IMG/VR virus record: IMGVR_UViG_3300032093_000807
Span: 1-24,399 of that record
DNA: 24,399 nucleotides
Source: a virus
Reading direction: 5' to 3' (one strand)
Shown: in pieces, positions 486 through 13,420 of the stretch
Layout of the letters: every line of letters starts with the position of its first letter
Numbering within the stretch: the stretch's first letter is position 1
Notes under the pieces: generated by a model
The model's database searches: none
What the model saw: only the letters and a program-made list of their open reading frames with translations
What the model was told of the DNA's origin: nothing
Translations under genes and position numbers: made by a program

Positions 486-491
486 AGCGAA

Positions 492-821: not shown

Positions 822-832
822 GGTGATTGGAT

Positions 833-1123: not shown

Positions 1124-1140
1124 GAGGCTAGAGAACAGGG

Positions 1141-1446: not shown

Positions 1447-1447
1447 A

Positions 1448-1654: not shown

Positions 1655-1661
1655 GGTGGGA

Positions 1662-2112: not shown

Positions 2113-2726
2113 GAGTAATTCATGGCCTTCTCGTCGAGATCGCTGAGGGTGACGCCGCGTTCCTTGAGCCAGGGAATCATGCAGGTGACGACGATCTTCT
2201 GTGCTTCCATTGGACGTGGCTTTTCTGCCGTGCCGATGAGCTTGCAGGTGAGATTGAAGGCTCGGGAAGCCTGCTCGATCAGCATCAGTAGATCGATGTC
2301 GAGGTTGTGCTCTGCGGCGCGCGCCTCAGCGTTGCGCTTGCGAACAGTGGCCGGGCGAACACCGCGATTAGGGATGACCGCAGTGCGCTGGGCGACGGCC
2401 GTCATGACGTGCGGGTCGGCGGCTTCGAAGGCAGCGAGATGGTCAGGATCGGACCAGCCTTCCTCTCGAGGAGGGAGCGCAGGATCCGCCAGTTCCTGCT
2501 CGTCAAAGTCAAGTTGGAGAACAGAAGCCTTGAGTTCCGTGTTGTACGTGAGGCAGCTGTCATCGAAGGTGAAGCCCTTCTTGACGATGTCGCGGATGGA
2601 TTCAGGGATGAGTGCGGCGCACTCGCCACCGCTTGGAAGCTTCTTGTTGAAGTAGAAGTAGTAGTAGCCGTGATGGTCCGGCTTGACGCTGGGCTTAGGG
2701 TCTGAGGTTGCGATACGGACGGCCAT
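2109..2726 (-). CDS. Hypothetical phage protein, 205 aa
   Basis: This is one of the larger leftward genes. The N-terminal part has an aromatic run HHGYYYFYFNKKLPSGG, the middle is acidic, and the C-terminal 100 residues look helical (NAEARAAEHNLDIDLLMLIE, then IVVTCMIPWLKERGVTLSDL). I recognise no domain. Start ATG 2726 is chosen because its leader carries the TTTCGC...CACCACC pattern seen before several other leftward genes; a second ATG at 2777 would add 17 residues and overlap the upstream gene by 20 nt. Placed directly after the Gp157-family gene and its coupled partner, it may belong to DNA metabolism, but that is only context. Confidence 0.65.
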   Translation of the reverse strand: MAVRIATSDPKPSVKPDHHGYYYFYFNKKLPSGGECAALIPESIRDIVKKGFTFDDSCLTYNTELKASVLQLDFDEQELADPALPPREEGWSDPDHLAAFEAADPHVMTAVAQRTAVIPNRGVRPATVRKRNAEARAAEHNLDIDLLMLIEQASRAFNLTCKLIGTAEKPRPMEAQKIVVTCMIPWLKERGVTLSDLDEKAMNYS

Positions 2727-2757
2727 TGGTGGTGGTTGCGAAAGGAAGAAGCGGGAG

Positions 2758-2985
2758 TCACTGGGGCGTGACTTCAAAGAAGTGAGAGCCGGGGCCGAAA
2801 TCGCGAACGATCTCCGGCCAGGTGTCGTAGATCTTGCGGGCGTTATTGCCGTCAGCCCTGCTGAGTGCAGTGGCTAGGCCGGAGACAAAGCCGCCGCCGT
2901 GCTTGCGCATGGCATCAACGGTGCGGCCCCGGTAGGCGTAGAAGGTCTGGAAGTCGGCCAGGGCGATCGATGGGATGGGTGTCAT
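2758..2985 (-). CDS. Small conserved-type phage protein, 75 aa
   Basis: It reads MTPIPSIALADFQTFYAY and then HGGGFVSGLATALSRAD and ARKIYDTWPEIVRDFGPGS. The pattern 'GG-x-F-x-x-x-L-x-x-A-x-x-x-AD-x-x-N ... FP-E ... GPGS' is one I associate with small unnamed proteins common in phages of many hosts, but I cannot give it a family name or function. It is coupled to the Gp157-family gene by an ATGA overlap, which suggests a shared task. Confidence 0.7.
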   Translation of the reverse strand: MTPIPSIALADFQTFYAYRGRTVDAMRKHGGGFVSGLATALSRADGNNARKIYDTWPEIVRDFGPGSHFFEVTPQ

Positions 2986-3551
2986 TTGATGGACCAGTTG
3001 GTGCGTTGAACAAGGCGAGCGCCGACAATCTCCTGGCCGCCTTTGAGTGCGGCCTTGATAGCGGTCTTGTCGGGCGTGCGGGTGGTCTTGGATTTGAAGA
3101 GGTCGTCAGGGATGAGGTCTTCGTCTTCGATCTCGACGGCTTCACTGCGCCGGGAGCGCAGTTCATGGGTCGGCAGGGAGAAGTTGCGGGCCTCGGGGCG
3201 CAAGGCGGTCAGCACCTTGAGCATGTAGTCGGTGAGCGACTGGGCACGCTTCTCATCTGCCGCCGCTAGTTCTGCCAGGCGGATCGACTGCTCCTTGCGG
3301 AACTTGGCGACCGCTTGCAGGTGGTCGATGTAGCGGCAGATGTTGTCAGCCTTGGACTCGAGCAGAGCAGCGGTGTGGGCTTGAGCTTCGAGGTACTGCT
3401 CGACCAACCGGATGGCGGTCTCCTCTTGCTCGGGATCGTCGGAGCCGAGCAATTCGGCAGCTAAGGCGAGCTCGCCGTCGATGTATTGGGTCTGGATGCC
3501 AAGGGCGTAGAGAGACTCTGCGCCCTGAGCTCTTGGGTCAGTAGAGCTCAT
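2982..3551 (-). CDS. Gp157-family phage protein, 189 aa
   Basis: The sequence follows the Siphovirus Gp157 pattern over its length: LESKADNICRYIDHLQ near residues 64-79, a long helical region with KRAQSLTDYMLKVL, then VEIEDEDLIPDD, KTTRTPDKTAIKAALKGG and a C-terminal GARLVQRTNWSIK. Members are common in phages, usually near recombination or replication genes, and one was reported to help resist other phages in Streptococcus thermophilus; the biochemical role is not settled. ATG 3551 overlaps the upstream gene by 14 nt. The open frame extends to 3698, but that part is Ser/Pro/Thr low complexity and lies inside the neighbour, so it was dropped. Confidence 0.88.
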   Translation of the reverse strand: MSSTDPRAQGAESLYALGIQTQYIDGELALAAELLGSDDPEQEETAIRLVEQYLEAQAHTAALLESKADNICRYIDHLQAVAKFRKEQSIRLAELAAADEKRAQSLTDYMLKVLTALRPEARNFSLPTHELRSRRSEAVEIEDEDLIPDDLFKSKTTRTPDKTAIKAALKGGQEIVGARLVQRTNWSIK

Positions 3552-3780
3552 GCTCGGAGTGGGCTTGGCAGTAGGACTGGAGGACGATCGCGGCCGGCCA
3601 GGAGGATGGTTCGCCGGAGCGGAGGTTGTTGACGTAGGTGTTGCGCTCGAGCTGGCTGCTGAAGTCGCAGCGCCAGCAGAGCGTGGTGCGGGTGTCATAG
3701 ACGTAGATGGAGAAGTGGTGATTAGTCGCGGCGCGTCGCAGCAGATAGCGCTTGCCGAGAGCGTTTGAGTTGGCGGTCAA
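3538..3780 (-). CDS. Hypothetical protein, about 80 aa, probable TTG start
   Basis: The reading frame between the coiled-coil gene upstream and the Gp157 gene has plausible protein content: GKRYLLRRAATNHHFSIYVYD, RTTLCWRCDFSS, and NTYVNNLRSGEPSSWPAAIV. There is no ATG in a sensible place; TTG at 3780 is the best start and overlaps the upstream gene by 59 nt. The C-terminus overlaps the Gp157 start. One CxxC pair is present. Family unknown and start uncertain. Confidence 0.5.
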   Translation of the reverse strand: MTANSNALGKRYLLRRAATNHHFSIYVYDTRTTLCWRCDFSSQLERNTYVNNLRSGEPSSWPAAIVLQSYCQAHSEHELY

Positions 3781-3934
3781 AGGACGCCAGTTGCCGCTTG
3801 ATCGTCTGGACAGAGCGACGGTCTTGGGAGGCGCAGCCAGCCTTGAGGGCGCGCTGGGCTTCTGAAAGCAGCTCTGCAGTCGCATCGCGGAGGCGAACCA
3901 GCGGAAGCAGGCTTTGATCAATGGCATCTGGCAT
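3722..3934 (-). CDS. Small helical (coiled-coil-like) protein, 70 aa
   Basis: It reads MPDAIDQSLLPLVRLRDATA, then a long charged helix with SVQTIKRQLASFDRQLKRSR. The composition is basic and almost free of Gly and Pro, so a helical hairpin or coiled coil is likely. It is the first gene after the terminator at 3984-4012, so it may start a transcription unit. ATG 3934 is chosen because a longer form would run into that terminator. Function unknown. Confidence 0.55.
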   Translation of the reverse strand: MPDAIDQSLLPLVRLRDATAELLSEAQRALKAGCASQDRRSVQTIKRQLASFDRQLKRSRQALSAATRRD

Positions 3935-3983
3935 GCTGAGTGCCGTGGCTTGCGCATTGTGGCCGGAAATTCCAGAAAGGGAA

Positions 3984-4012
3984 GCCCCGGCGTGCGGAAT
4001 GCACACCGGGGC
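3984..4012 (-). terminator. Intrinsic terminator of the 4020-4406 gene
   Basis: GCCCCGG (3984-3990) pairs with CCGGGGC (4006-4012), and the inner GTGC/GCAC arms lengthen the stem to about 11 pairs with one mismatch and a 5-nt loop. On the - strand the stem is followed by TTCCCTTTC, a moderate U-rich tail. It begins 8 nt after the stop at 4020. Confidence 0.75.
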
Positions 4013-4019
4013 GACTAGG

Positions 4020-4406
4020 TCAGGCGACCGTGATCTGCTGGAGTTCCGCGGCAGGTGCGGCAGCGACGGCCTCGGTTGCGGTTTCAGCAGCGGCCAGGCC
4101 GTGCTTCACCGCCTTGGTGTAGAGGGTCTTGGTGTAGACCTCCTTGGCCGAGATCGCATAGACGCCGGTGGGCGAGGAAACGATCTTGCCGAAGTAGAGG
4201 GTGCCGGTTGCCGGATCCTCGAAGGTGTCGGCAGGGTTATCGCGGCCGACCATATCGGTGATGTGATCGGACTTGAAGCCGGCGTTGATTGCCGTCTCCC
4301 GGCGAGCCATGCCGCCGTTGCGGTTAGAGACCCAAGCCAGTTCGGCGTGGGTCCAGTTGCTGCCGGAGTAGAGGCGAGCGGAGATAGGGCCGAGGTTGAG
4401 TTCCAT
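4020..4406 (-). CDS. Hypothetical phage protein, 128 aa
   Basis: It starts MELNLGPISARLYSGSNWTH and ends in an Ala-rich tail (AAAETATEAVAAAPAAELQQ) that is probably disordered. The middle contains TGTLYFGKIVSSPTGVYAIS, likely beta structure. It stands alone between its own terminator and a 5' region bearing the conserved 20-bp box, so it has the same monocistronic cassette design as the genes at 7.3-10 kb. The frame is open to 4451, but ATG 4406 carries the TTTCGCAATCCACC leader found before other leftward genes. Function unknown; the compact build and high-expression design make an abundant early protein plausible. Confidence 0.65.
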   Translation of the reverse strand: MELNLGPISARLYSGSNWTHAELAWVSNRNGGMARRETAINAGFKSDHITDMVGRDNPADTFEDPATGTLYFGKIVSSPTGVYAISAKEVYTKTLYTKAVKHGLAAAETATEAVAAAPAAELQQITVA

Positions 4407-4436
4407 GGTGGATTGCGAAAGTGCGAAACGAAGCAA

Positions 4437-4465
4437 GCCCCTTACATGCACTGCTGTAAGAGGGC
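4437..4465 (-). promoter_or_regulatory. Copy 1 of the conserved box, in a hairpin form
   Basis: The box ATGCACTGCTGTAAGAGGGC (+ strand, 4446-4465) lies 31 nt beyond the 5' end of the 4406 gene. Unlike the other copies it sits in a hairpin: CTTACA (4441-4446) pairs with TGTAAG (4455-4460), and GCCC (4437-4440) with GGGC (4462-4465) across a one-base bulge. No terminator precedes it here because the + strand island starts on its other side. Confidence 0.55.
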
Positions 4466-4484
4466 AAAAACAAGCAAGTAGAAT
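4466..4484 (+). promoter_or_regulatory. Possible late promoter of the 4514-5352 island
   Basis: AAAAACAAG (4466-4474) followed by TAGAAT (4479-4484) lies 30-48 nt before the ATG at 4514. The same AAAAACAAG and TAGATT pair lies directly before the large terminase gene. TAGAAT fits a TANNNT -10 element; no -35 element is apparent. Confidence 0.4.
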
Positions 4485-4513
4485 GCAAACAACGCAGTAC
4501 GAATCGTTCCGCG

Positions 4514-5005
4514 ATGTTTAGCGGTGTGCGCAACCTGGATGAGCGAATCCGGGGCTACATGGCCCAGCAGGCTGAGGGCCAATTGGCTGCTCGCCGCCAG
4601 GCCGTCATGGACGACCTGAAGAGTCAGATTCAGTCCAGCCCTGCTAGCGCAGCCAAGCGTGTTGGCGAGCGCTTCGGTGTATCAGAAGGCGGGCTCAGCG
4701 ACCTCGAGCGAGTGCTGCGAGGTGAACGAGGCGCCGTGTCGCAGGAAGTGTTTGCACCGAATAGCGGTGCGATGCTCCAGGCGACGGCTGATCGCGAGGC
4801 TGCCCGCAATCCGCTGTACAACCTGCAGCGCATGCTGTCCGGTGAAAGCACTGCGGATCGTGCTGGCCAAGTCGCGTTTTACGGTGCTGCCGCTGGTGGC
4901 GCTACTGCCGGCCTCACTGCAGCAGGTCAAGGCCTGATGGCCCTGATGGAATACCTGCAGCAAGGTCAGCAGTCCGAGCAAGAGCGCGAACAGCCTCTCG
5001 CTTGA
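4514..5005 (+). CDS. Putative virion-associated protein, 163 aa
   Basis: The protein begins MFSGVRNLDERIRGYM. It has a charged helical N-terminal two-thirds, a Gly/Ala-rich hydrophobic stretch AFYGAAAGGATAGLTAAGQGL near residues 120-140, and a Gln/Glu-rich tail ending QQSEQEREQPLA. This layout resembles the late proteins at 13971-14480 and 16211-17485, which also pair a Gly/Ala hydrophobic stretch with a Gln/Glu-rich C-terminus. It is therefore a candidate internal virion protein, although it lies among leftward early genes. No family recognised and no clear ribosome site. Confidence 0.6.
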   Translation: MFSGVRNLDERIRGYMAQQAEGQLAARRQAVMDDLKSQIQSSPASAAKRVGERFGVSEGGLSDLERVLRGERGAVSQEVFAPNSGAMLQATADREAARNPLYNLQRMLSGESTADRAGQVAFYGAAAGGATAGLTAAGQGLMALMEYLQQGQQSEQEREQPLA

Positions 5006-5006
5006 C

Positions 5007-5147
5007 GTGGAAGATCCGCAGCGCTGGGAGTGTGCTGTGTGGGTCCGGGTCAAGGCGGCTTTAGAAGCTGCTGGTAAGACCCGGACGTCGTATTACTTGA
5101 TGGCTGATGAAGCCGTTCGCCTTTGCAAGCTGAAAAGCCATGGATAA
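5007..5147 (+). CDS. Small hypothetical protein, 46 aa, GTG start
   Basis: The ORF starts with GTG one base after the upstream TGA and its end overlaps the ATG of the next gene by 8 nt, so it fills the gap exactly. It reads (M)EDPQRWECAVWVRVKAALEA and continues AGKTRTSYYLMADEAVRLCK, which looks like a compact helical protein. It is rich in charged and aromatic residues rather than low complexity, supporting coding. Function unknown. Confidence 0.5.
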   Translation: MEDPQRWECAVWVRVKAALEAAGKTRTSYYLMADEAVRLCKLKSHG

Positions 5148-5352
5148 CGACTTTCCGATGCTTGCCGGTGCCCGGCTTGGGTTGGGATCGATGGACATAC
5201 AGCGTGGATTGAGCAATGGTTCGTTGAACGGATTGCGGCTCTCGAACGCTGTTGGCCCTCTATGGCCGAGCAATCCGATGGCACCAGAGAATAGTGAGCC
5301 GCACTTCACGGCTAGCGGTGGTTACCAGCCGGAAGTAGCGTTCGGCGCCTAG
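5140..5352 (+). CDS. Hypothetical protein, 70 aa
   Basis: It starts MDNDFPMLAGARLGLGSMD, overlaps the small gene before it by 8 nt, and is the last gene of the + strand island. The sequence is rich in Gly, Asn, Leu and Pro with little charge (NGSLNGLRLSNAVGPLWP), as in some virion peptides. Its TAG overlaps the TAG of the convergent - strand gene, so the two blocks meet tail-to-tail without a terminator. Confidence 0.55.
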   Translation: MDNDFPMLAGARLGLGSMDIQRGLSNGSLNGLRLSNAVGPLWPSNPMAPENSEPHFTASGGYQPEVAFGA

Positions 5353-5534
5353 TCGATAACTGGGCCCATCATGCGCCGGAAGTCGGCGGTGAGCTTGGCG
5401 CAGTCGCTGACTGAATCCTCGACTGCAAGCAGGACGCGGGCTTCTGCTGCTAGGTCGAGGTTGGAGTCGAGGGCCAGGGTGCCGACAATGAAGCGGCGCT
5501 CGAGGGGCTTGTCGTCGACGTGGGTCGTGGTCAT
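5349..5534 (-). CDS. Hypothetical protein, 61 aa
   Basis: It reads MTTTHVDDKPLERRFIVGTL and continues ALDSNLDLAAEARVLLAVED. It is the last gene of the second leftward operon; its ATG overlaps the upstream TGA (ATGA) and its stop overlaps the convergent gene's stop by three bases. Mixed alpha/beta composition, no motif recognised. Confidence 0.6.
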   Translation of the reverse strand: MTTTHVDDKPLERRFIVGTLALDSNLDLAAEARVLLAVEDSVSDCAKLTADFRRMMGPVID

Positions 5535-5857
5535 AGGAGGGAGGTGTCGCGGCTAACAGGGAGTCCGGTGTGGCGAGAGAAGGCTTTGAGTGCCTGGGCG
5601 TTGTTGCCGCCGATATGCCACCAGTAGTCCTCGCGTGGGATGGACGGCTCTTTCCAGTCATAGATATGGAATGTGGTGCCGTCCTTGCAGCGGAAGGCCC
5701 ATTCGACATTGACTTTGCCGTCGATGTCGCGCTCATGCGGTTCGCCGAGAAGGGCGATCAAGGTGGCGTAGTTTGTGCGGCAGTAACCAGCCAGAGATCC
5801 ACTGGCGTGGTCGGCTGGGCCCAGGACTGCGAGGGGGTGGAGGTTGGAGGTGTTCAT
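5531..5857 (-). CDS. Hypothetical phage protein, 108 aa
   Basis: The central part reads VNVEWAFRCKDGTTFHIYDWK and is followed by DYWWHIGGNNAQALKAF. The pattern 'W-x-F-x-DGT-x-x-x-IYDWK ... WHIGG-x-x-x-x-A' resembles unnamed small proteins found in many phages. The N-terminal part contains TNYATLIALLGEPH. It is linked to the next gene by ATGA. Function unknown. Confidence 0.7.
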   Translation of the reverse strand: MNTSNLHPLAVLGPADHASGSLAGYCRTNYATLIALLGEPHERDIDGKVNVEWAFRCKDGTTFHIYDWKEPSIPREDYWWHIGGNNAQALKAFSRHTGLPVSRDTSLL

Positions 5858-5860
5858 GAG

Positions 5861-6052
5861 TTAGGCAGGTTGACGGTGAATGACGAGCTCGCCCTCGAAG
5901 CCGCCAAAATCGTCGTTGACGTCGGCTTCGATGAAGGCGAGAAAGCCTGGCTCGGTGGGCTCGGTGTCGTACTCAGCGCAGTATTCGAGGTAGGAATCGG
6001 GCGAGTAGATAAGGGTTTGCGTAGCTTCAACTGCGGTGACGTTGAAGGTCAT
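5861..6052 (-). CDS. Hypothetical acidic protein, 63 aa
   Basis: It begins MTFNVTAVEATQTLIYSPDS and is very acidic through its second half (FIEADVNDDFGGFEGEL). Its ATG overlaps the end of the zinc-ribbon gene upstream, and its stop lies 3 nt before the next gene's start. Net negative small proteins like this are common phage early products that bind host proteins, but no specific target is indicated. Confidence 0.6.
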   Translation of the reverse strand: MTFNVTAVEATQTLIYSPDSYLEYCAEYDTEPTEPGFLAFIEADVNDDFGGFEGELVIHRQPA

Positions 6053-6264
6053 TGATTGCTAGAGCGGAATTCAGAGACGATGCCGTGGTGATCGCAGGCG
6101 TCACAGCGGATGAAGGACCAATCGCCCCAGGAGTCGTTGTCACCTGTGGTTTCGATCCAGCCGTCGTCGTGCATGATGACGTTGGTCTCGACGGTGACTA
6201 CGAAGGGGCTATCGGATTTGCAGTCGGGGCACTGAATGCCACGCAGGCAGTTGGTGTTGGTCAT
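6049..6264 (-). CDS. Small zinc-ribbon phage protein, 71 aa
   Basis: CPDC at residues 12-15 and CDAC near residue 54, followed by DHHGIVSEF, form a plausible zinc ribbon. Between them, DDGWIETTGDNDSWGDWSF matches the acidic connector I know from small unnamed phage zinc-ribbon proteins. It is coupled to the downstream gene (ATGA) and separated from the upstream one by 3 nt. Role unknown; RNA, DNA or protein binding are all possible. Confidence 0.7.
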   Translation of the reverse strand: MTNTNCLRGIQCPDCKSDSPFVVTVETNVIMHDDGWIETTGDNDSWGDWSFIRCDACDHHGIVSEFRSSNQ

Positions 6265-6267
6265 AGT

Positions 6268-6723
6268 TCACGTACGTCCAGGGTGTGAGCGAAGGTCGCA
6301 AAGGGATTGCAGTTGTTCGTCGGTTAGGTCATCGAGCTGAGTGCTGATGCAGAGCACCTCGCCGCTGGGCATGGCTCGGTAGTAGACGCCGCCGTGTTCG
6401 TCGGGTCTGAGCTTGCTGCAGTAGTAAGCGACTGACAGGCCAAAGCTCTTAAGGATGAGCTTGCGTTCGGCGAGCTTCTCGATCACGTACTCGAAGCTGA
6501 GCGAGCAGAAGTACTCATCGCCGCTTGAGATGTAAAGCGAGCCGTCGCCGCCCATCTCGAGATCGAGGCAGCCAGCGTAGAAGTCGTCGAACTCGGCTGG
6601 ACGATCCTCCTGGTCGAGGATATCTTGGAGTTCGCCGTTGATCAGGACGGCCGCCTCGACTCCGCCCGGAGCGAAGCAGTCGGCCGGGACGCGAGTGGCG
6701 CCTATTTCGTAGTTATTGGCCAT
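6268..6723 (-). CDS. Hypothetical phage protein, 151 aa
   Basis: This is the largest gene in this operon. It starts MANNYEIGATRVPADCF, is acidic (DILDQEDRPAEFDDFYAGC) and has mixed beta/alpha stretches such as SLYISSGDEYFCSLSFEYV. The C-terminus contains DDLTDEQLQSLCDLRSH. Neighbour spacings of 2-3 nt on both sides support the ends. No domain is recognised. Confidence 0.65.
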   Translation of the reverse strand: MANNYEIGATRVPADCFAPGGVEAAVLINGELQDILDQEDRPAEFDDFYAGCLDLEMGGDGSLYISSGDEYFCSLSFEYVIEKLAERKLILKSFGLSVAYYCSKLRPDEHGGVYYRAMPSGEVLCISTQLDDLTDEQLQSLCDLRSHPGRT

Positions 6724-6725
6724 GG

Positions 6726-6980
6726 TTAGAAGTGTTCAGGGCAGGGGTAGATGGGGTCGTTGTTTTCGTCGTAGGCCCAGGTGTTGTCAGGTGTTGCTGA
6801 GCGCCAGGCTTCCTTGATGTGTCCCCACTCGATCTCAGCTACTGCGATCCAGGGGCTGGCTAGCTCGTCCCTGGTAACGGACTCGAGTAGTAGCGCGTGA
6901 TCTTTGGGGATCTCGTCGCGCTCGACTGTGAGCTGGAATGAGGTGGTGACCTCGTATTCGATGGTGATGCGATGGGTCAT
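6726..6980 (-). CDS. Hypothetical protein, 84 aa
   Basis: The N-terminal strand pattern MTHRITIEYEVTTSFQLTVE is followed by an acidic helix and a tail DENNDPIYPCPEHF. It lies 3 nt from each neighbour. The protein resembles unnamed small phage proteins with an amphipathic beta N-terminus, without a name I can support. Confidence 0.6.
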   Translation of the reverse strand: MTHRITIEYEVTTSFQLTVERDEIPKDHALLLESVTRDELASPWIAVAEIEWGHIKEAWRSATPDNTWAYDENNDPIYPCPEHF

Positions 6981-6983
6981 GGG

Positions 6984-7268
6984 TCAGAGAGGCGATAGGG
7001 GCTTGTAGTTGCGGATGCGGGAGTATCTAGTTGCTGCGCCCGTGCTGGCGCCCTTGAAGACGGGCTCGATGGAATTGGTGCGGCACCAATGCACGAAGCG
7101 AGAGGCGTCTTCGTCTTCTTCGAGGTAGACGTACTCGCCGCGTTCGTAGGAGAACGGAGTGAAGACTGAGCGCCAGTGCTCGCCAATGATTCTGGCGAGG
7201 AAGGTTTTGGGGACTTTGACCCAAGCGTGGCCTGGGTCGGAGTGGACGCGGAAGATGCGGGTTTGCAT
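6984..7268 (-). CDS. Conserved-type phage protein, 94 aa
   Basis: It reads MQTRIFRVHSDPGHAWVKVP and contains FSYERGEYVYLEEDEDASRF. The pattern 'GHAW-x-x-VP ... SY-x-x-x-x-x-YLEED-x-DA' is typical of an unnamed family found in many phages. ATG 7268 is chosen over one 12 nt upstream because it starts directly at the family-like N-terminus. It is the first gene of the 5.35-7.27 kb operon and follows a terminator and a partial copy of the conserved box. Confidence 0.7.
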   Translation of the reverse strand: MQTRIFRVHSDPGHAWVKVPKTFLARIIGEHWRSVFTPFSYERGEYVYLEEDEDASRFVHWCRTNSIEPVFKGASTGAATRYSRIRNYKPLSPL

Positions 7269-7274
7269 GGGGTG

Positions 7275-7282
7275 ATGCACTG
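7275..7282 (-). promoter_or_regulatory. Partial copy of the conserved box
   Basis: ATGCACTG lies 7 nt upstream of the 7268 start and is followed in + strand sense by AAAGAGAGAGCC, which resembles the purine half of the full box. Position between a terminator and a start codon matches the full copies, but the match is incomplete. Confidence 0.35.
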
Positions 7283-7299
7283 GGCGTGCAAAAGAGAGA

Positions 7300-7326
7300 G
7301 CCCTGCCGGCAGATGCCAGACAGGGC
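7300..7326 (-). terminator. Intrinsic terminator after the 7333-7566 gene
   Basis: GCCCTG (7300-7305) pairs with CAGGGC (7321-7326) around an inner GGC/GCC pair. On the - strand the stem is followed by TCTCTCTTTTGC. It begins 7 nt after the stop at 7333. Confidence 0.65.
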
Positions 7327-7332
7327 TTGGGA

Positions 7333-7566
7333 TCAGCAGGTGGGAGCAGGCCAGGCGTAGCGCTCCTCGAGGGTGCGCTCGTAGATGGCCTCCAGGACCT
7401 CGATCTGCTCGTCGCTGAGCTCTGCGTCGTCGTCTTCGTCGGAGGTGACGATGACTTCGCCGGGGAAGAGCTGCTCGAGGACCAGACCGATGGGCTCCAG
7501 CTGATCGGGAGTGCCGCGCACCGAGAGGCGAACGCGGCGATCGGGGCAGTACTGAGTGAGAACCAT
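7333..7566 (-). CDS. Hypothetical acidic protein, 77 aa
   Basis: It starts MVLTQYCPDRRVRLSVRG and has a basic beta-like N-terminal half, then an acidic helical half (DEDDDAELSDEQIEVLEAIY). A terminator follows directly. A poorly matching box-like stretch precedes it near 7575-7595. The split of charge between halves suggests a small alpha/beta domain, perhaps a protein-binding inhibitor, but nothing identifies it. Confidence 0.6.
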   Translation of the reverse strand: MVLTQYCPDRRVRLSVRGTPDQLEPIGLVLEQLFPGEVIVTSDEDDDAELSDEQIEVLEAIYERTLEERYAWPAPTC

Positions 7567-7601
7567 GTGCTTATTGAGAATGGATTGCAGTAAGAGAAGG
7601 A

Positions 7602-7874
7602 TTAGGAGGCAAAGCCAGCAGCGGCGGGCTTATGGCGGGTGACGCGCTGCGGGCGAGCCGGTTTGCTGCGTTCGATGACGACAGTCTCGAGCGGAGTGGC
7701 GGGTGCGGGCTCGAGGACCAGGGGCTCGATTTGTACGGCTTCTGTCCGTACAGGCGAGAAGAGATCCTCGATGCCAGGAAGGAAGTTCCTGAGGCCGGGC
7801 CAGAGGAGGCGTTGCCAGAGGGTGATGGCTATTGCTGCGGTCCAGGCCGCGATGGTGATCAGGGTGTTGCGCAT
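7602..7874 (-). CDS. Small single-pass membrane protein, 90 aa
   Basis: The N-terminal MRNTLITIAAWTAAIAITLW (residues 1-20) is a clear membrane segment or signal anchor. The rest is Pro-rich and ends with a basic stretch (RSKPARPQRVTRHK). ATG 7874 was chosen over an upstream ATG because it carries the GTTCTTTCGC leader box. Size and topology would fit a small lysis accessory protein or a host-membrane protein, with no direct evidence for either. Confidence 0.6.
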   Translation of the reverse strand: MRNTLITIAAWTAAIAITLWQRLLWPGLRNFLPGIEDLFSPVRTEAVQIEPLVLEPAPATPLETVVIERSKPARPQRVTRHKPAAAGFAS

Positions 7875-7908
7875 GGCAGGTGCGAAAGAACGAAGGAAGG
7901 TGCGCCCC

Positions 7909-7926
7909 ATGCACGGCTGCAGAGGC
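7909..7926 (-). promoter_or_regulatory. Variant copy of the conserved box
   Basis: ATGCACGGCTGCAGAGGC (+ strand) matches the box with one inserted G and a shortened purine half. It lies between the terminator at 7937-7962 and the 7874 start. Confidence 0.4.
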
Positions 7927-7936
7927 GCACTAAAAA

Positions 7937-7962
7937 ACCCCGCACGGGAGACCGAGCGAGGT
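7937..7962 (-). terminator. Intrinsic terminator after the 7977-8150 gene
   Basis: On the - strand ACCTCGC pairs with GCGGGGT (one G-U pair) and is followed directly by six T. It starts 15 nt after the stop at 7977. Confidence 0.75.
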
Positions 7963-7976
7963 AAATGGTTAGGTAC

Positions 7977-8150
7977 TTAGAAGACGTCGCCAGGCAGGAG
8001 CCCCTGCTGGCATTGGTCATAGATGTAATCACCGACCTGGCTCCAGAGTGGATCCAGGGTGAAGTCGTAGTCCGCTGCCCTGCTGGAGAGCGCAAGAGCG
8101 TCGCGCAGGGCGATGGCTTCTGCTGGGGTGAGCGTGATCTGGAGGGTCAT
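7977..8150 (-). CDS. Hypothetical protein, 57 aa
   Basis: It reads MTLQITLTPAEAIALRDALA and continues SSRAADYDFTLDPLWSQVGD, a compact strand-helix protein with one Cys. The ATG at 8150 follows the upstream terminator by about 25 nt; this is one cassette where the conserved box is not recognisable. A terminator follows the gene, so it is probably transcribed alone. Function unknown. Confidence 0.6.
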   Translation of the reverse strand: MTLQITLTPAEAIALRDALALSSRAADYDFTLDPLWSQVGDYIYDQCQQGLLPGDVF

Positions 8151-8179
8151 GACAGATGAGCGTGTTGCGCAAAAGAAAA

Positions 8180-8205
8180 GCCCCACCCGCAAAGGCGAGT
8201 GGGGC
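8180..8205 (-). terminator. Intrinsic terminator after the SSB-like gene
   Basis: On the - strand GCCCCACTCGC pairs with GCGGGTGGGGC across a 4-nt loop with one mismatch, followed by TTTTCTTTT. The stem belongs to the family of near-identical terminators repeated at 8822, 9230, 9525 and 9797. Confidence 0.9.
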
Positions 8206-8228
8206 GAGAGGGGCTGAACCGTCCGAGC

Positions 8229-8735
8229 TCAGAAGGGAACTTCCTCGCCGGTGGGTTCAGCCGAGAAGGGTGCCTCGGGTTGGGCGAACTCAGGCCCGAC
8301 GGGGGCCGAGTTGAGGACCTCGATGCGCTGAGCGCGGAGTTGTCTGCGGTAGGCGACGGGGTAGCCGCGGTCGTTGCGGGTGATCTCGCCGTAGACGGTC
8401 CAGTAGCCGCTGATGGCGACCCTGGCCCATTCGGTGTTGTTCGCAATCGAGAGGATCTCGCTGGCGATGGGCACACCGTTGTCGGTGGCGATGATCGAGT
8501 CGATGGGCAGATCGACGTTCACCTCCTTGCCACCGCGGTTGTCGCGAGTGGAGTTGGTGAGGATGGCCGAGACCGTGAGCTTGCCGCCGTCCGGACGGGA
8601 GATGTCCTTCACGGCTTTGAGCATGCCGACGAGTCGGACCATGCCAGCCGCTTTGGGATCTCCGCTGGAGGCAGCGAGTTGGGTTTCGAGCTCGGAGATG
8701 CGAGCTTCGAGGTCGGCCTTGGTGGCGGTAGCCAT
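8229..8735 (-). CDS. Putative single-stranded DNA-binding protein, 168 aa
   Basis: After a short N-terminal coiled coil (ADLEARISELETQLA), residues 31-140 look like an OB-fold: MVRLVGMLKAVKDIS, LTVSAILTNS, WARVAISGYWTVYGEIT and RAQRIEVL in the right order of strands. A Pro/Ala/Glu linker leads to an acidic tip ending GEEVPF, close to the DDDIPF tail by which bacterial SSB proteins recruit partners. This supports a divergent phage SSB-like protein for replication or recombination. The assignment is from pattern only. ATG 8735 is the only Met fitting the fold and has the GTTCTTTCGCC leader box plus a hairpin in front. The gene is flanked by its own terminator and the conserved box. Confidence 0.6.
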   Translation of the reverse strand: MATATKADLEARISELETQLAASSGDPKAAGMVRLVGMLKAVKDISRPDGGKLTVSAILTNSTRDNRGGKEVNVDLPIDSIIATDNGVPIASEILSIANNTEWARVAISGYWTVYGEITRNDRGYPVAYRRQLRAQRIEVLNSAPVGPEFAQPEAPFSAEPTGEEVPF

Positions 8736-8792
8736 GTGGTGTTCCCGGCGGTGCCGGGGCGAAAGAACCACGCCTCGAATCAGGCAGCGCCA

Positions 8793-8812
8793 ATGCACTG
8801 CTGAAGAGAGGC
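8793..8812 (-). promoter_or_regulatory. Copy of the conserved box before the SSB-like gene
   Basis: ATGCACTGCTGAAGAGAGGC (+ strand) lies between the terminator at 8822-8849 and the 8735 start. It is a few bases from the terminator's T tract, so any promoter for this gene must lie in or around it. Confidence 0.6.
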
Positions 8813-8821
8813 AATAAAAAA

Positions 8822-8849
8822 GCCCCCACCCGCAACAGCGAGTGAGGGC
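8822..8849 (-). terminator. Intrinsic terminator after the 8869-9141 gene
   Basis: On the - strand GCCCTCACTCGC pairs with GCGGGTGGGGGC around a 4-nt loop, followed by TTTTTTATTGCC. Confidence 0.9.
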
Positions 8850-8868
8850 AAGTGAAGCGCGCTCGAGC

Positions 8869-9141
8869 TCAGAAGGGGCAAACCTCCAGCTCGAGCTGAT
8901 GTATTGCTGGGCGGTTGAGCTCAGCAATCTGCTGGCACCAGGCGATGTGCCGGCGCTGGAGATCGCCGAGGGGGTGGCCGTCCATGACCTGATCGATCAT
9001 GGCCTCGAGGTGAGCGCGCGCGACTTCGATCTCCTGAGAGATCTCGCCGTGCAGCTTGCGGCCGTCCTCGGTGAGGGTGACGCCAGCGCGTGCCAGGAGG
9101 CGGAGTTGCTGGCTGAGACGGTAGAGCTTGCCTTCCGTCAT
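8869..9141 (-). CDS. Hypothetical helical protein, 90 aa
   Basis: It starts MTEGKLYRLSQQLRLLARAG and is almost wholly helical, with heptad-like stretches (ISQEIEVARAHLEAMIDQVM). It ends LELEVCPF. The last codons and stop share a GAGCTCAGAAGGG context (+ strand) with the end of the SSB-like gene, and the leader also shares the GTTCTTTCGCC box and a hairpin with that gene, so the two cassettes look related in their flanks though not in protein sequence. ATG 9141 chosen over 9177, which lies within the shared leader. Confidence 0.6.
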   Translation of the reverse strand: MTEGKLYRLSQQLRLLARAGVTLTEDGRKLHGEISQEIEVARAHLEAMIDQVMDGHPLGDLQRRHIAWCQQIAELNRPAIHQLELEVCPF

Positions 9142-9200
9142 GGTGGTAACCCGGGTGCCCCGGGGCGAAAGAACCACATGCCGTCAGTCAGTCAGCGCGG

Positions 9201-9220
9201 ATGCACTGCTGAAAGAGGGC
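9201..9220 (-). promoter_or_regulatory. Copy of the conserved box before the 9141 start
   Basis: ATGCACTGCTGAAAGAGGGC (+ strand), with only a short AATAAAAAA link to the terminator at 9230-9257. Confidence 0.6.
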
Positions 9221-9229
9221 AATAAAAAA

Positions 9230-9257
9230 GCCCCCACCCGTGAAAACGAGCGAGGGC
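9230..9257 (-). terminator. Intrinsic terminator after the 9281-9478 gene
   Basis: On the - strand GCCCTCGCTCG pairs with CGGGTGGGGGC with small internal mismatches, followed by TTTTTTATT. Confidence 0.85.
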
Positions 9258-9280
9258 AGGAGGCGGAATTTGGAGGGGTG

Positions 9281-9478
9281 CTAGCGGAAAAGTTCCGGGG
9301 TCCTGAAGGGGTTGATGTGGCCCAGGCCGTAGAGGGCAAAGCCGACTGCTGCGCCGCAGCCGCCTATGAGCCCGCCTGTGCCGAAGAGGAGATAGCCGAT
9401 GCCGCCGTAGAGGAGGCAGCCGAGAGCGAGTCCGCCGACCGAGCCAAGGATGTAGCCGATCCAGCCGTAGGTGTTCAT
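9281..9478 (-). CDS. Small Gly-rich two-pass membrane protein, 65 aa
   Basis: Two hydrophobic Gly-rich segments, YGWIGYILGSVGGLALGCLL (4-23) and YLLFGTGGLIGGCGAAVGFA (29-48), make a membrane hairpin with GxxxG packing motifs. A short polar tail PFRTPELFR follows. Size and hairpin topology would fit a holin or another membrane-disturbing phage peptide, but there is no family match and no endolysin beside it. ATG 9478 follows the full shared leader. Confidence 0.6.
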   Translation of the reverse strand: MNTYGWIGYILGSVGGLALGCLLYGGIGYLLFGTGGLIGGCGAAVGFALYGLGHINPFRTPELFR

Positions 9479-9495
9479 CGAAGCAAGCAGCGCGC

Positions 9496-9515
9496 ATGCA
9501 CTGCTGAGAGAGGGC
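9496..9515 (-). promoter_or_regulatory. Copy of the conserved box before the 9478 start
   Basis: ATGCACTGCTGAGAGAGGGC (+ strand). From the box to the start codon the leader is close to those at 9750-9767 and 10002-10019. Confidence 0.65.
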
Positions 9516-9524
9516 GATGAAAAA

Positions 9525-9554
9525 GCCCCCACCCCGAGCAAACGGAGTGAGGGC
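9525..9554 (-). terminator. Intrinsic terminator after the 9561-9749 gene
   Basis: On the - strand GCCCTCACTCCG pairs with CGGGGTGGGGGC around a 6-nt loop, followed by TTTTTCATC. It lies 6 nt after the stop at 9561. Confidence 0.85.
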
Positions 9555-9560
9555 AGGGAA

Positions 9561-9749
9561 TCAGAAAGCCTTGACCATGTAGGTGCGGCAGAACTCGGAG
9601 TGAGCTGCGTGCTTGTGAGCCGGCCAGTCTTGGGTGGCGCATTGATCACGGGTGGCGCGATCAAGCCGGGCAACGCCGGCATGGAAGACGCCGACCAGGA
9701 GAAAGCCGATGGAGGTACCGGCGGCGATGGCGAGGAAGGGATTGCGCAT
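9561..9749 (-). CDS. Small membrane-anchored protein, 62 aa
   Basis: The N-terminus MRNPFLAIAAGTSIGFLLVG (1-20) is a membrane segment or signal anchor. The remaining 40 residues are polar and hold two Cys and several His (CATQDWPAHKHAAHSEFCR), which might bind metal or form a disulfide outside the membrane. No family recognised. Own box and own terminator. Confidence 0.6.
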   Translation of the reverse strand: MRNPFLAIAAGTSIGFLLVGVFHAGVARLDRATRDQCATQDWPAHKHAAHSEFCRTYMVKAF

Positions 9750-9767
9750 CGAAGTCAGGCAGCGCGC

Positions 9768-9787
9768 ATGCACTGCTGAGAGAGTTC
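9768..9787 (-). promoter_or_regulatory. Copy of the conserved box before the 9749 start
   Basis: ATGCACTGCTGAGAGAGTTC (+ strand). The 44 bases from the start codon through the box (9747-9790) match 9999-10042 with one difference. Confidence 0.65.
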
Positions 9788-9796
9788 ACGCAAAAA

Positions 9797-9824
9797 GCCC
9801 CCACCCGCGGATGCGAGTGAGGGC
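9797..9824 (-). terminator. Intrinsic terminator after the 9831-10001 gene
   Basis: On the - strand GCCCTCACTCGC pairs with GCGGGTGGGGGC around ATCC, followed by TTTTTGCG. The stem arms are identical to those at 8822-8849. Confidence 0.9.
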
Positions 9825-9830
9825 AAGTGG

Positions 9831-10001
9831 TCAGGCGATCGGAAAGACATCGATCGATTTGTGCTCGGGGAAGAGCGCTGCGTCGTAGTGCAGCCAGCGC
9901 CAGGCGTCGTCCTCGGAGGGGAAGCCCGGGCCGAAGGGGATGAATTCACCGGCGGAGGTGATGGCAACCGCGAAGTAGCGGGTCTTGGTGGTGGTGGTCA
10001 T
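9831..10001 (-). CDS. Hypothetical protein, 56 aa
   Basis: It starts MTTTTKTRYFAVAITSAGEF and contains SEDDAWRWLHYDAALFPEHK. The pattern of a short strand, a turn and an acidic Trp-rich helix suggests a small folded domain. It is the first gene of the leftward block, directly after the long non-coding region, with its own terminator. Function unknown. Confidence 0.6.
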   Translation of the reverse strand: MTTTTKTRYFAVAITSAGEFIPFGPGFPSEDDAWRWLHYDAALFPEHKSIDVFPIA

Positions 10002-10019
10002 CGAAGTCAGGCAGCGCGT

Positions 10020-10039
10020 ATGCACTGCTGAGAGAGTTC
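10020..10039 (-). promoter_or_regulatory. Copy of the conserved box before the 10001 start
   Basis: ATGCACTGCTGAGAGAGTTC (+ strand). No terminator lies upstream, because this is the first cassette; that separates the box from the terminator as a conserved unit. Confidence 0.65.
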
Positions 10040-10110
10040 ACGAACACGAACCCGAGTGTTTAACGCGCACGGCGTGTACCCTTGGCGCGATTTAACAGCG
10101 CAGCCGGGGC

Positions 10111-10160
10111 GGAGCGAGCCGGAGCGCAAGAGAGCAGAAGGGAGCAGAGCGGAGCGGAAT
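10111..10160 (+). repeat. Five tandem 10-bp units with a GGAGC core
   Basis: Units begin exactly every 10 bases: GGAGC at 10111, 10121, 10141 and 10151, and AGAGC at 10131; the other five bases vary. One-helical-turn spacing places the cores on one face of the DNA, as in protein-binding arrays or iterons. It ends about 110 bases before the first leftward start codon. Confidence 0.6.
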
Positions 10161-10731
10161 AGGGCAACAGAAGCAACTCTCCAGTGAGAGGAGACTTGCG
10201 TTGGTAGCAATGTGCTGGATGCACAACAAAGCGTGCAATCGCAGCAAAAGACAACAACAAGACGCGATAGAATAGAGAAACGAAAAGAGCACCCCGCTCC
10301 CTAGAACCCCGGTGGGCAGTGGATTTGGCCCCACCGCGTCACGAGTGAACGGGGGTATGAGCGGATGCGAGCCGCCTAGTTACGCGCGTGTGCGTGCAGT
10401 GTTATGTACGCGTGCTGGGTTATAGCTAGCGCGTTGATGTGCAGTAGCGAGTGAAAGCTTAAGAGTGTTGCGCGTGGTGAAGCAACAGCGTCGCGTGCAT
10501 TTGTGTGCAAAAGTGTCCGCGTGGATTGTTGATGTGTACCGTTGCTGTACCACTGCCTTGCGCGCGTTGGCGTCTGCTGACATCAGCACACGTGGCGCGG
10601 CGCGCTCTCTACTTCTTTTTTTTGTTTGACAGCAATCCCAACCTGGCGGGGGTGTTTGATGTCTACCGCGCGGCGCAATAAAAATTTTGAGCTTTTCAGG
10701 GGAGCGGCCTTGCATTAGCTCTGCGCTTCCT

Positions 10732-10757
10732 CGTGTGAAATTTTGGCGTTTTACACG
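10732..10757. promoter_or_regulatory. Dyad that could be an operator of the late block
   Basis: CGTGTGAAA (10732-10740) and TTTTACACG (10749-10757) form inverted arms with one mismatch around 8 bases. It lies 51-76 bases before the late 870-aa gene. A homodimeric regulator or a stem in RNA could use it. Confidence 0.4.
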
Positions 10758-10802
10758 ACACACAGAGTGACCCCCCGCGCGGGTGCGCAGCGTGAGTCTC
10801 GA

Positions 10803-10808
10803 TAGACT
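10803..10808 (+). promoter_or_regulatory. Possible -10 element of the late block
   Basis: TAGACT, a TANNNT hexamer. Similar hexamers precede several other + strand genes. Transcription would start near the first codons, giving a very short leader or none. Confidence 0.3.
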
Positions 10809-13420
10809 TGTCTGACGTAATGCGTGAACGGGTTTACGCGATGGCTCCGCGGCAAATCAGCGAAGAGGAATATCTGCGGAAATTTCGGCCAGAGGAATAC
10901 GAAAAACGTCGCAAGTTAGGTATATATAGTGATGCAACTCCGCAACCACAAAATGTACCCGGGCTCCCCCCGCCGGAAGCTCGCTACTCGCCGGAGGAGA
11001 TTCGCGGCATCCTGCTGGACAGCGGCTCGCTGAAGGAGTACGGACGCGGCGGCACCCGGGCTGGTTCTCAGATGGACCGCGCTGCACAGCAAATCGCGGT
11101 CCAAGACGAGATTGCGCGCCAACAGCTTCTTGATGCAGGCGTCGATGGCCTGGTTGCCGGCATGTCGCAGGCGGTGGGTGCTCCGGTTGACCGGAACACC
11201 GCCCTGCTGGCCCGTGAATACATGACGATGCCGGGCGGCGAGGCCCTCGAGCTGTCCGATGCAGTGCGGTTGGCAGCGGCATCCGGCGCAGTACAGGGGC
11301 AAATCCCCGCCGAACTCAGCGCGAAAGTCGCTCAATTGGGCGAAATCGGCCGTGATCAGGGGCTCGATGTCGTCCTAAAGGCCGCGAATCAGGGTTTGAT
11401 CGACCCCTCGCTGCCGATCGAAGCCCAAATCGACGCGCTGGACCCCGAAAGCAAGGCGAAATTGGCGCTGCTGGCCCGAGTTCAGGGCCAAATCGAGCAA
11501 CTCAACGCAGAAGAGACCGGTTTGGCGGCAAATGCGCTGGGTCTTGGCCGTACGGTTGGCGGTCGTCGCAACTCATTCCGCAAAGAAAAGCGAGGCAACG
11601 AAGAAGCAGCTGTCCTGAGAACCCCTGGCAGCGTCCTGTCGCAAGGGATGGAGTTCAAGGCGGACGACATCCTCCTGCCGTTCGTGATCGCGCCCAAGAA
11701 CCAGCAGGTCTGGAGCTCTGGGAAAGCGGCCGGTCCCTACTCGGATGTCAGTGGCCCTGTGATGCAGGCCGCCCAGTACTACAACGGCGACAAATTTGCG
11801 CCATCGCTGCGGGATGCACAGGTTCTGTATGTGAACCCGTACGGCGAGGTGTCGGATGCAGTGGTCTCACGACTGGGTCTGGACCTCGTGCAGAACCCAA
11901 TCGAGAAGGATGTCTCAGGCGGGTACGACCAGGAGTCACTCAATGTCCCGGTACCTGATGTTGGGCAAGAACGCTACGGCCTGCGCCCGAAGGACGACCC
12001 CTCATTCGGCATGGATGCAGGGGCTTCGTACCGCAACCCGACCTTCGCGGAAGCTGTCAACGCCCTTTCGCTGAAATATCGGACCCCGATCGGTGTCTTC
12101 ACGGAAGACATGCTCGCTGGCGGCGGTCGTGGTTACAGCGATGTCCTCGTCAACCAGCCAGGGCGCGAAGTTTTCGCGCTGGGATCCAAGCGCCGCCCTG
12201 ACGGGAAGCCCGCGCCCATTGCCGACTACTTCCAGGAGCCCGCCGAGCCGGGCGAACCGAGAGTTGCTGACGTACGCATTGGAAGCGGACAGAAACGAAC
12301 GCCCGAGTTCTATGCCGCGCTGGACGATTTGATCGACGCCGTTGCACTGGAAGCGTACGGAGCACCCGGCCAGGCATACGGCGACCCTGGTGTCATCGAG
12401 GAGCGATCGACCGGGAATCGCTACGCCCCCGCCGCTGCAAGTCCAATGCCCGGCGAAGCGAAGTGGGGGTCGCTGATGAACCTCCGCAGCACGGACCCCG
12501 TCGTCGCTGACTACCAGCGGAGGCTCCTAAGCGAAGCAGGCTTCCCAATCAATACGAGTGCGGCCAACCCCCTGCTGGGCGTCGTTGACGTTCTTGAGCA
12601 ATTGGCGGGTGCGCCTCCCTCTGACACAGATGTTCGTCGCGGTGTACTGACCGCCGCCGCCGCTGAGCCTTTGGTAGCAGTCACTGGGCAAGCAGGAGCG
12701 GCCCGCATCCTGGAGGCAGCCAAGCAGCGAGCGAGTGAGCTAAGGGGGCGGACACGTCCCACTACTGATAACGCACGGCAGACGTACGAAAAGGCGATCT
12801 CTGATCTGGTCAAACGCGGCGTCGGCAGCGGCGAGCCTCGAGTGGAAGCTCGCGCAGTGGAACCGAAGCCTCAGGTGAGCGCTGCGACCCGTCGAGCGCG
12901 GGCCAGCCAGCCCATTATCCCCGGGCTGGAAGGCGATGTGCGCTTCCCGGCCAACGCCTTAGACCCCGTAACGCGTGATCTGGCTAGGTATATGGCAGAG
13001 CGCGCCCCGCAGGTTGGCACGCGCAATCCCGAACAAGTCGTGCAATATGTGCCGGCAGAACTGTTCAACCGATTCTTCACGCAGCAAGCACCCGAGGGGG
13101 CGGGTGGCGGCACCCGGCAGGGCGAGCTGCAGCTCAATACGCTGCAACGCGGCATGGCGGACGCTCTATTCGGGCGCTCTGATCGAGCCGCCCGCGCAGG
13201 CGGGTATACGGCTTCTTATATCGATGACGTGGCCCAATACATGGAAGCGCAACAGAAGCAGCGGGCTCTCGAGGAGAAAGCGTCAACCGCGCCTGTACTG
13301 GCATCGACTAATACTGTCCAGGAATCCCTGCTGAACGCGCCCGCCAGCCCTAAGAGCGCACCGACTGCGATGGCGGATGAGCTACTGAAGCGCAGGCTGG
13401 GCCGCATGACTGGTCGATGA
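10808..13420 (+). CDS. Large putative virion protein, 870 aa
   Basis: The first late gene encodes a large protein with no domain I recognise. Residues 1-50 are charged (EEEYLRKFRPEEYEKRRKL), 50-270 are helical and Ala/Gln-rich, the centre (about 285-560) looks globular with aromatic and Pro-rich loops, and the last 200 residues are again Ala/Arg/Gln-rich helices. There is no signal or membrane segment. Its place at the head of a structural block suggests an internal, ejection or tail-associated virion protein. The start is uncertain: TTG 10808, ATG 10820 or ATG 10841 are all in frame and none has a clear ribosome site. It overlaps the next gene by ATGA. Confidence 0.75.
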   Translation: MSDVMRERVYAMAPRQISEEEYLRKFRPEEYEKRRKLGIYSDATPQPQNVPGLPPPEARYSPEEIRGILLDSGSLKEYGRGGTRAGSQMDRAAQQIAVQDEIARQQLLDAGVDGLVAGMSQAVGAPVDRNTALLAREYMTMPGGEALELSDAVRLAAASGAVQGQIPAELSAKVAQLGEIGRDQGLDVVLKAANQGLIDPSLPIEAQIDALDPESKAKLALLARVQGQIEQLNAEETGLAANALGLGRTVGGRRNSFRKEKRGNEEAAVLRTPGSVLSQGMEFKADDILLPFVIAPKNQQVWSSGKAAGPYSDVSGPVMQAAQYYNGDKFAPSLRDAQVLYVNPYGEVSDAVVSRLGLDLVQNPIEKDVSGGYDQESLNVPVPDVGQERYGLRPKDDPSFGMDAGASYRNPTFAEAVNALSLKYRTPIGVFTEDMLAGGGRGYSDVLVNQPGREVFALGSKRRPDGKPAPIADYFQEPAEPGEPRVADVRIGSGQKRTPEFYAALDDLIDAVALEAYGAPGQAYGDPGVIEERSTGNRYAPAAASPMPGEAKWGSLMNLRSTDPVVADYQRRLLSEAGFPINTSAANPLLGVVDVLEQLAGAPPSDTDVRRGVLTAAAAEPLVAVTGQAGAARILEAAKQRASELRGRTRPTTDNARQTYEKAISDLVKRGVGSGEPRVEARAVEPKPQVSAATRRARASQPIIPGLEGDVRFPANALDPVTRDLARYMAERAPQVGTRNPEQVVQYVPAELFNRFFTQQAPEGAGGGTRQGELQLNTLQRGMADALFGRSDRAARAGGYTASYIDDVAQYMEAQQKQRALEEKASTAPVLASTNTVQESLLNAPASPKSAPTAMADELLKRRLGRMTGR

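Follow-up and report, generated by a model that had tools for sequence, protein, structure and literature searches.

A repeated, oriented box joined to terminators in the early region of phages related to cyanophage S-EIV1: a candidate leader RNA element

Start-associated sequences (SAS) and extended start-associated sequences (ESAS) are carried by Cluster K mycobacteriophages (PMC3203893) and Cluster EF Microbacterium phages (PMC7302621). They are short asymmetric words repeated, nearly all in one orientation, through the non-structural part of the genome; they precede genes of different families, an inverted repeat lies near some copies, the consensus varies by subcluster, and no function is assigned. 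We describe here a box with these same properties in the leftward genes of IMG/VR record IMGVR_UViG_3300032093_000807, a virus record of 24,399 nt that was analyzed whole (hereafter the window), and in related phages. SAS lie 3–7 bp from the start codon and contain a Shine-Dalgarno core (AGGAG), whereas the box lacks AGGAG, lies about 0–68 nt from the first frame-opening ATG, and mostly follows terminators; for ESAS the authors found little support for hairpins, whereas the flanks of the box support base pairing. The asymmetric word in one orientation in the non-structural part is common to both (the sides of our genomes being assigned from gene content), and the ribosome-binding position and AGGAG are absent from the box. 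SAS and ESAS are the nearest described kind, from which the box departs in position and in Shine-Dalgarno content.

Stoperators of Cluster A mycobacteriophages (PMC9283540) are asymmetric 13-bp sites whose orientation is tied to transcription and which occupy short intergenic gaps and promoter regions. The box likewise comprises asymmetric sites oriented with transcription in intergenic gaps, but stoperators have an immunity repressor, whereas the box is joined to terminators at a near-fixed distance and often lies in co-adapted hairpins. The 17-bp repeats of Cluster O mycobacteriophages (PMC4351075) resemble the box as a short word found many times in related phages; unlike the box, they form a near-perfect palindrome that has no orientation and lies partly inside genes. 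The box is a repeated, oriented, start-linked phage control element, and what is new in it is the linkage to terminators and the co-adapted hairpins. A preliminary description of the window had offered two explanations, a promoter for a phage-encoded or modified host polymerase and an RNA leader element. We favor the second, at a probability of roughly 0.45: within early transcription units the box would work in cis as an RNA element, either in the leader or between cistrons. This preference rests on hairpins co-adapted on both sides of the box and on start codons that, in about half of the copies from less GC-rich relatives, follow it almost immediately.

The window encodes a terminase 51% identical to that of Synechococcus phage S-EIV1 and a 740-amino-acid protein that matches phrog_20475. 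Judged by sequence, its phage is a relative of cyanophage S-EIV1, and the box-bearing family probably infects cyanobacteria, the host being taken from S-EIV1 only. A second record of 36 kb (IMGVR_UViG_3300031963_000455, our G010) has a 740-amino-acid protein and a box region identical to those of the window. Gene content suggests an early side made up of the leftward genes in bases 1–10,000 and a structural side made up of the rightward genes that begin at 10,808. The scan set comprised 103 sequences (2.29 Mb), made up of 22 joined records, S-EIV1, and 80 locus pieces around the 740-amino-acid gene; several of the relatives' records, the window included, are incomplete.

Read in the direction of the genes, the box consists of a T-run, then YRTG, then CANCRGTGCATT. 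The array of 20-bp boxes first reported from the window is real: a search with that 20-mer allowing three mismatches gave five matches (4446, 9201, 9496, 9768, and 10020, each with zero to two mismatches) against a mean of 0.01 in shuffled sequence. At 8793 the 11-base core is fully intact, and an indel in the outer part explains why the 20-mer search missed this copy. A position-weight scan of the box strand of the window found seven copies of at least 10 bits and no others. Two weaker forms had also been proposed, of which that at 7909, sharing the core and carrying CAGCCGTGCAT inside a 7-bp stem, scores 20.4 bits and stands, whereas that at 7275 scores below 10 bits and is a degenerate relative of the box only. 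The strongest conservation spans 11–12 bases, and the outer GGGC/GTTC letters of the original 20-mer are variable. Forty-five non-redundant copies aligned on the core are T-rich from −18 to −13 and share T at −10 (0.94), G at −9 (0.96), and C at −6 (0.94); the core, CAGC[A/G]GTGCAT, was the search word for this alignment, and its conservation there is by construction. Three 11-mer matches in coding context (G001 60301, G005 50925, and G002 82640) were left out of the position table.

Across the 103 sequences the position-weight scan, with a matrix trained on sites from the same genomes, gave 144 sites of at least 14 bits against four in reversed sequence, and 121 against none at 18 bits or more. 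All 144 lie within 17 of the 22 joined records, 143 of them on one strand per record, and they represent 134 distinct contexts. No site of at least 14 bits was found in S-EIV1, in the 80 other locus pieces, or in G011, G013, G018, G020, and G021, all of which are fragments (G021 being 66.6 kb). Of 30 records searched, 12 contain the exact 11-mer, each on a single strand, with no control matches; a phage antisense RNA was rejected on this single-strandedness. A search for the exact composite including the T-run returned 14 stretches on 10 IMG/VR contigs (the search may omit the records closest to the window), and of these contigs seven were already among the relatives and the other three encode the same terminase at 81–86%. 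As far as the exact pattern shows, the composite appears confined to the S-EIV1-related family. Box-bearing phages range from about 41% to 62% GC, and the letters of the box change by clade: it reads CAACAGTGCATT or CA[CT]CAGTGCATT in the 41% GC genomes, CATCAGTAC[A/T]TT in G023, and CAACAATGCATT or CAACACTGCATT in G027. The intergenic location of boxes was judged from listings, not from gene annotation; with a crude open reading frame caller, 37 of the 121 sites fell within frames of at least 100 amino acids, a count left unused because at this GC content long frames often overlap. Rfam gave no match at gathering scores in the window (six weak matches fell below them), and a literature search found no description of the element, the ten papers that contain CAGCAGTGCAT being unrelated by title and the remaining check covering titles and the starts of abstracts.

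In the window, the boxes at 8793, 9201, 9496, and 9768 directly follow strong intrinsic terminators of 12 pairs, and the terminators at 8822 and 9797 share the same stem arms, both in agreement with the preliminary description. Bases 1–11000 hold 20 terminator-like sites against 6.8 in shuffles and no sigma-70 promoter-like site against 2.9. The parts of the locus, from the head of the array leftward, are as follows.

10020..10030, minus strand: box core CAGCAGTGCAT, the first of the array, not directly preceded by a strong terminator; 3' hairpin GCAGTGC-ATAC-GCGCTGC at 10011-10028
9831..10001, minus strand: cassette gene, 56 amino acids, no convincing family
9797..9824, minus strand: intrinsic terminator, 12 pairs then T5
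9768..9778, minus strand: box core, hairpin at 9759-9776
9561..9749, minus strand: cassette gene, 62 amino acids, one hydrophobic stretch
9525..9554, minus strand: intrinsic terminator
9496..9506, minus strand: box core, hairpin at 9487-9504
9281..9478, minus strand: cassette gene, 65 amino acids, hydrophobic and glycine-rich
9230..9257, minus strand: intrinsic terminator
9201..9211, minus strand: box core, hairpin at about 9193-9208, then a long leader with GTTCTTTCGCCCCGG (within 9150-9177)
8869..9141, minus strand: cassette gene, 90 amino acids
8822..8849, minus strand: intrinsic terminator, arms identical to those at 9797-9824
8793..8803, minus strand: box core, hairpin at 8784-8801, long leader with GTTCTTTCGCCCCGG (within 8744-8771)
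8229..8735, minus strand: last gene of the close-spaced array, 168 amino acids, C-terminus EEVPF, no Pfam or other family match
8180..8205, minus strand: intrinsic terminator after the close-spaced array
7909..7919, minus strand: variant box CAGCCGTGCAT in the loop of stem GTGCGCC/GGCGCAC (7900-7930), with a hairpin and T-run before it, by eye
7275..7290, minus strand: degenerate box-like hairpin TGCAC-GCCCA-GTGCA, after a hairpin at about 7300-7326
4446..4456, minus strand: box core in the loop of covarying stem GCCCTCTTAC/GTAAGGGGC (4437-4465), between divergent genes
4020..4406, minus strand: gene served by the 4446 box (MELNLGP...), 128 amino acids, conserved among relatives
10040..10807, no strand assigned: intergenic region upstream of the array, in which a single block is conserved (ACATCAAACACCC, about 10640-10680), well away from the box

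The frame divergent from the 4446 box starts at 4514, 58 bases away. The word GTTCTTTCGCCCCGG, a second leader word common to two cassettes, is accompanied by a small hairpin just before the start codon and is also found in relatives. The EEVPF end of the 8229-8735 product resembles the acidic tip of single-strand binding proteins (SSB).

Placement was counted over nine genomes for sites of at least 16 bits (at least 14 bits in G023 and G027). All 89 boxes lie on one strand, and 66 begin 14–20 nt after the start of a terminator T-run. A box follows only 66 of the 203 same-strand terminator predictions and so is not part of every terminator; it marks the terminators that precede further early units, together with array heads and single divergent units. 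The start codon lies 0–5 nt after the box in 22 of 43 copies from less GC-rich relatives, against 4 of 42 from GC-rich ones. Between box and start codon, over +11 to +50, the word CTYCG occurs in 41 of 88 copies, an enrichment over the 7 and 14 of 88 in control stretches, and 26 of the 41 stand at +23/+24 downstream of the box.

The box pairs with its surroundings in three geometries, having a 3' partner (GCAGTGC-ATNN-GCGCTGC), a 5' partner (TGCACT-N8-AGTGCA), or a stem that encloses it. By our rule, pairing with its own flank occurs in 35 of 43 copies from GC-rich relatives and 19 of 45 from the others. Fold tests were run without the scan hits at G002 49772 and G004 10956; among all 144 sites, only that at G004 10956 is on the other strand of its record. 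When 39-nt segments were folded natively and with left flanks swapped among copies of the same genome, no swap was as stable as the native set in 300 trials with 81 copies or in 1,000 with 84; by group, 0 of 1,000 swaps were as stable for 39 copies from GC-rich relatives and 8 of 1,000 for the 45 others. Shuffling the flanks gave a mean z of −2.46 in the GC-rich group (37 of 43 copies below −1, one above 1) and −1.14 in the less GC-rich group (22 of 45 below −1, three above 1). The two sides of the box are thus co-adapted to pair. The enclosing stem of the 4446 type carries both-sided changes at six of ten pairs (seven rows, chosen for one shared register); its covariation is 0.486, whereas shuffling gives 0.233 (0 of 500) and sliding no more than 0.162. 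Where the box varies by clade, the variants are accompanied by matching upstream changes (TGTAC/GTACA in G023, TGCAGT/ACTGCA in G027), and matching downstream changes occur at box positions 2, 4, 6, and 7 in 47 rows chosen for pairing. Enclosing stems at other sites are in other registers, as if the hairpins arose more than once. The sense strand gives the more stable fold in 54 copies and the antisense strand in 32.

Several observations weigh against an RNA element. No clear stem was found in 34 of 88 copies, 26 of them less GC-rich, and hairpin geometry varies between copies, so that no single RNA fold is conserved; the constant property of the box is its sequence, pairing being a second and more flexible one. 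The antisense strand also passes the swap test (0 of 1,000), which therefore cannot by itself separate RNA from DNA. Column-wise pairing counts for the 5' stem are not above within-genome permutation. A comparison of G-U with A-C pairs was rejected as proof of sense RNA, because the 31 against 5 over all stems compares with 23.8 against 6.5 in flank-swapped controls, and without box position 6 the 3' hairpin gives 17 against 16, about equal. Finally, at the 4446-type site the short divergent gap holds no recognized separate early-strand promoter, which favors a promoter role for the box itself.

If the box nonetheless acts as RNA, a route can be proposed. Hairpins begin about 2–14 nt past the terminator T-run, so that the hairpin-bearing RNA would come from polymerase already past the terminator, and at array heads it would come from a putative upstream promoter. 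The element would most likely let polymerase or transcript survive the row of terminators, by antitermination or by processing or stabilization, reloaded at each cassette and acting through a putative sequence-specific factor. One specific form of this, distributed antitermination, would have cassettes end in true intrinsic terminators, the box-in-hairpin of the next leader re-arm the polymerase, and one promoter serve a swappable row of terminated genes; we regard that form as improbable. The host group is not known to carry Rho. The lambda nut (boxA/boxB) and HK022 put sites, antitermination elements that act as RNA in early leaders, likewise let polymerase pass terminators. In some copies the box holds CTCTTACA, like lambda boxA, but CTCTT is not conserved among copies, the geometry is varied, and copies recur after many terminators; the conserved boxA and fixed boxB hairpin that mark nut-type sites are absent from the box. 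A zinc-ribbon/helix-turn-helix-like protein (G001 77612-78004) was considered as a box-binding factor and dropped, being present in G001, G003, G010, and the boxless S-EIV1 with no convincing match in the other records. A leader peptide within the box was dismissed on the inconsistency of its frames between copies.

The rival that survives best, though we think it doubtful, is a promoter in which the composite of T-run, YRTG, and box is read by host polymerase altered by a phage factor, each cassette being an independent unit after its terminator. The near-fixed T-run spacing, single orientation, and location at unit heads suit this reading, as do the hundreds of poorly conserved bases before the first box of arrays; in the window, bases 10040..10807 outside the ACATCAAACACCC block are poorly conserved among seven relatives. 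It would also account for the 4446-type site, where no other recognized conserved early-strand element lies between the box and the divergent gene. CATTCTA/TAGAATG (4479-4485 in the window) is present at the divergent site in 10 of 10 genomes, but was dropped as a host −10 upstream of the 4446-type box, because in G002 the divergent gene starts at the CAT of this word, whose invariance may then have another cause. T7-like single-subunit RNA polymerases use promoters with a conserved word of about 20–30 bp repeated before genes. No such polymerase was matched here: PF00940 gave no match in 12 relatives or S-EIV1, whereas the positive control P-SSP7 was matched. In the same 13 records Sigma70_r2 gave none (11 of 14 control genomes matched), RNA_pol_Rpb2_6 matched none of the 12 relatives, and Sigma70_r4 gave sub-cut-off matches only, in three of the 12, all of which speaks against the phage polymerase first proposed. 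Nor did the 45 aligned copies, which with one exception come from GC-rich relatives, show a conserved AT-rich −10-like stretch immediately after the box. A promoter would require leaderless mRNA where the ATG follows the box by 0–5 nt, and would leave the co-adapted hairpins that span the box without a role.

The block at about 10640-10680, GCGCCGCGCGGT..ACATCAAACACCC, is kept in seven relatives, hundreds of bases upstream of the first box and between the divergent early and late sides.

It is unlikely that the box acts as a stoperator-like asymmetric operator, at which a phage repressor would block elongation and hold polymerase on the T-run just upstream. One orientation relative to transcription and short intergenic gaps are what Cluster A stoperators display (PMC9283540), and the box letters vary by clade as repressor specificities would. 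Integrase-type domains above cut-off occur in five of five box-bearing GC-rich records longer than 80 kb (PF00239 in G002, G003, and G005; PF00589 in G001 and G017), so that these relatives may be temperate, and S-EIV1 lacks both integrase types and the box. An integrase match is, however, also absent from the box-bearing G023 (80 kb), G024, and G027, and sub-cut-off only in G022 and G019; no repressor candidate was identified, and the co-adapted hairpins go unexplained. The two kinds of integrase-type domain in the GC-rich relatives are mutually unrelated, and no tRNAs were found near integrases across the 14 loci examined. A terminase scan of genome contigs was set aside as a guide to host or prophage identity: it found five contigs in metagenome-assembled genomes labeled Acidimicrobiales (one) and Euryarchaeota (four), probably misbinned phage contigs, and no host was deduced from them.

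Least probable is an ordinary translation-initiation or RNA-decay element, box and hairpin acting only on ribosome access or on the mRNA lifetime of the next gene, for although the location upstream of a gene, the hairpins, and the CTYCG enrichment fit, the wide range of box-to-ATG distances and the 66 of 89 boxes that follow a terminator, placing them at unit heads and not before every gene, do not. Our estimates for the four readings overlap, a translational or decay role being also an RNA role.

S-EIV1 has repeated leader words of its own before small early genes, with no box, on the minus strand at about 43490-43810 and 40730-41490. They read GATCCGTCAAAGCGGGT... and CCCTGGGC[AG]TCCATA...TAAGTCCCAGGA, and S-EIV1 38000-45000 has no Rfam match.

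The relatives bear out the suggestion that control parts are shared while genes are exchanged. Clustering of box-to-box units from nine genomes showed whole units present or absent in arrays that are otherwise collinear. Units f12, f16, and the first unit set G002, G005, G006, and G008 apart from one another; unit f3 in G003 sits between units that adjoin in G001; unit f4 precedes f2 in G001, G003, G004, G007, and G010; and the close-spaced units end with f2 in eight of nine genomes (G008 ends at a contig edge). Units were cut at the boxes, and the comparison is thus one of whole units. The claim that the genes inside the cassettes differ completely is slightly too strong, as the adjoining cassettes at 9768 and 9496 fall in one nucleotide family by single linkage. 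Homologous recombination within the repeated stretch would exchange cassettes, and a shared terminator and leader around different genes gives a concrete way for phages to keep single-gene cassettes exchangeable. A control element repeated through the early side of the S-EIV1-related phage family also offers a clear-cut way to test transcription start against read-through and repression.

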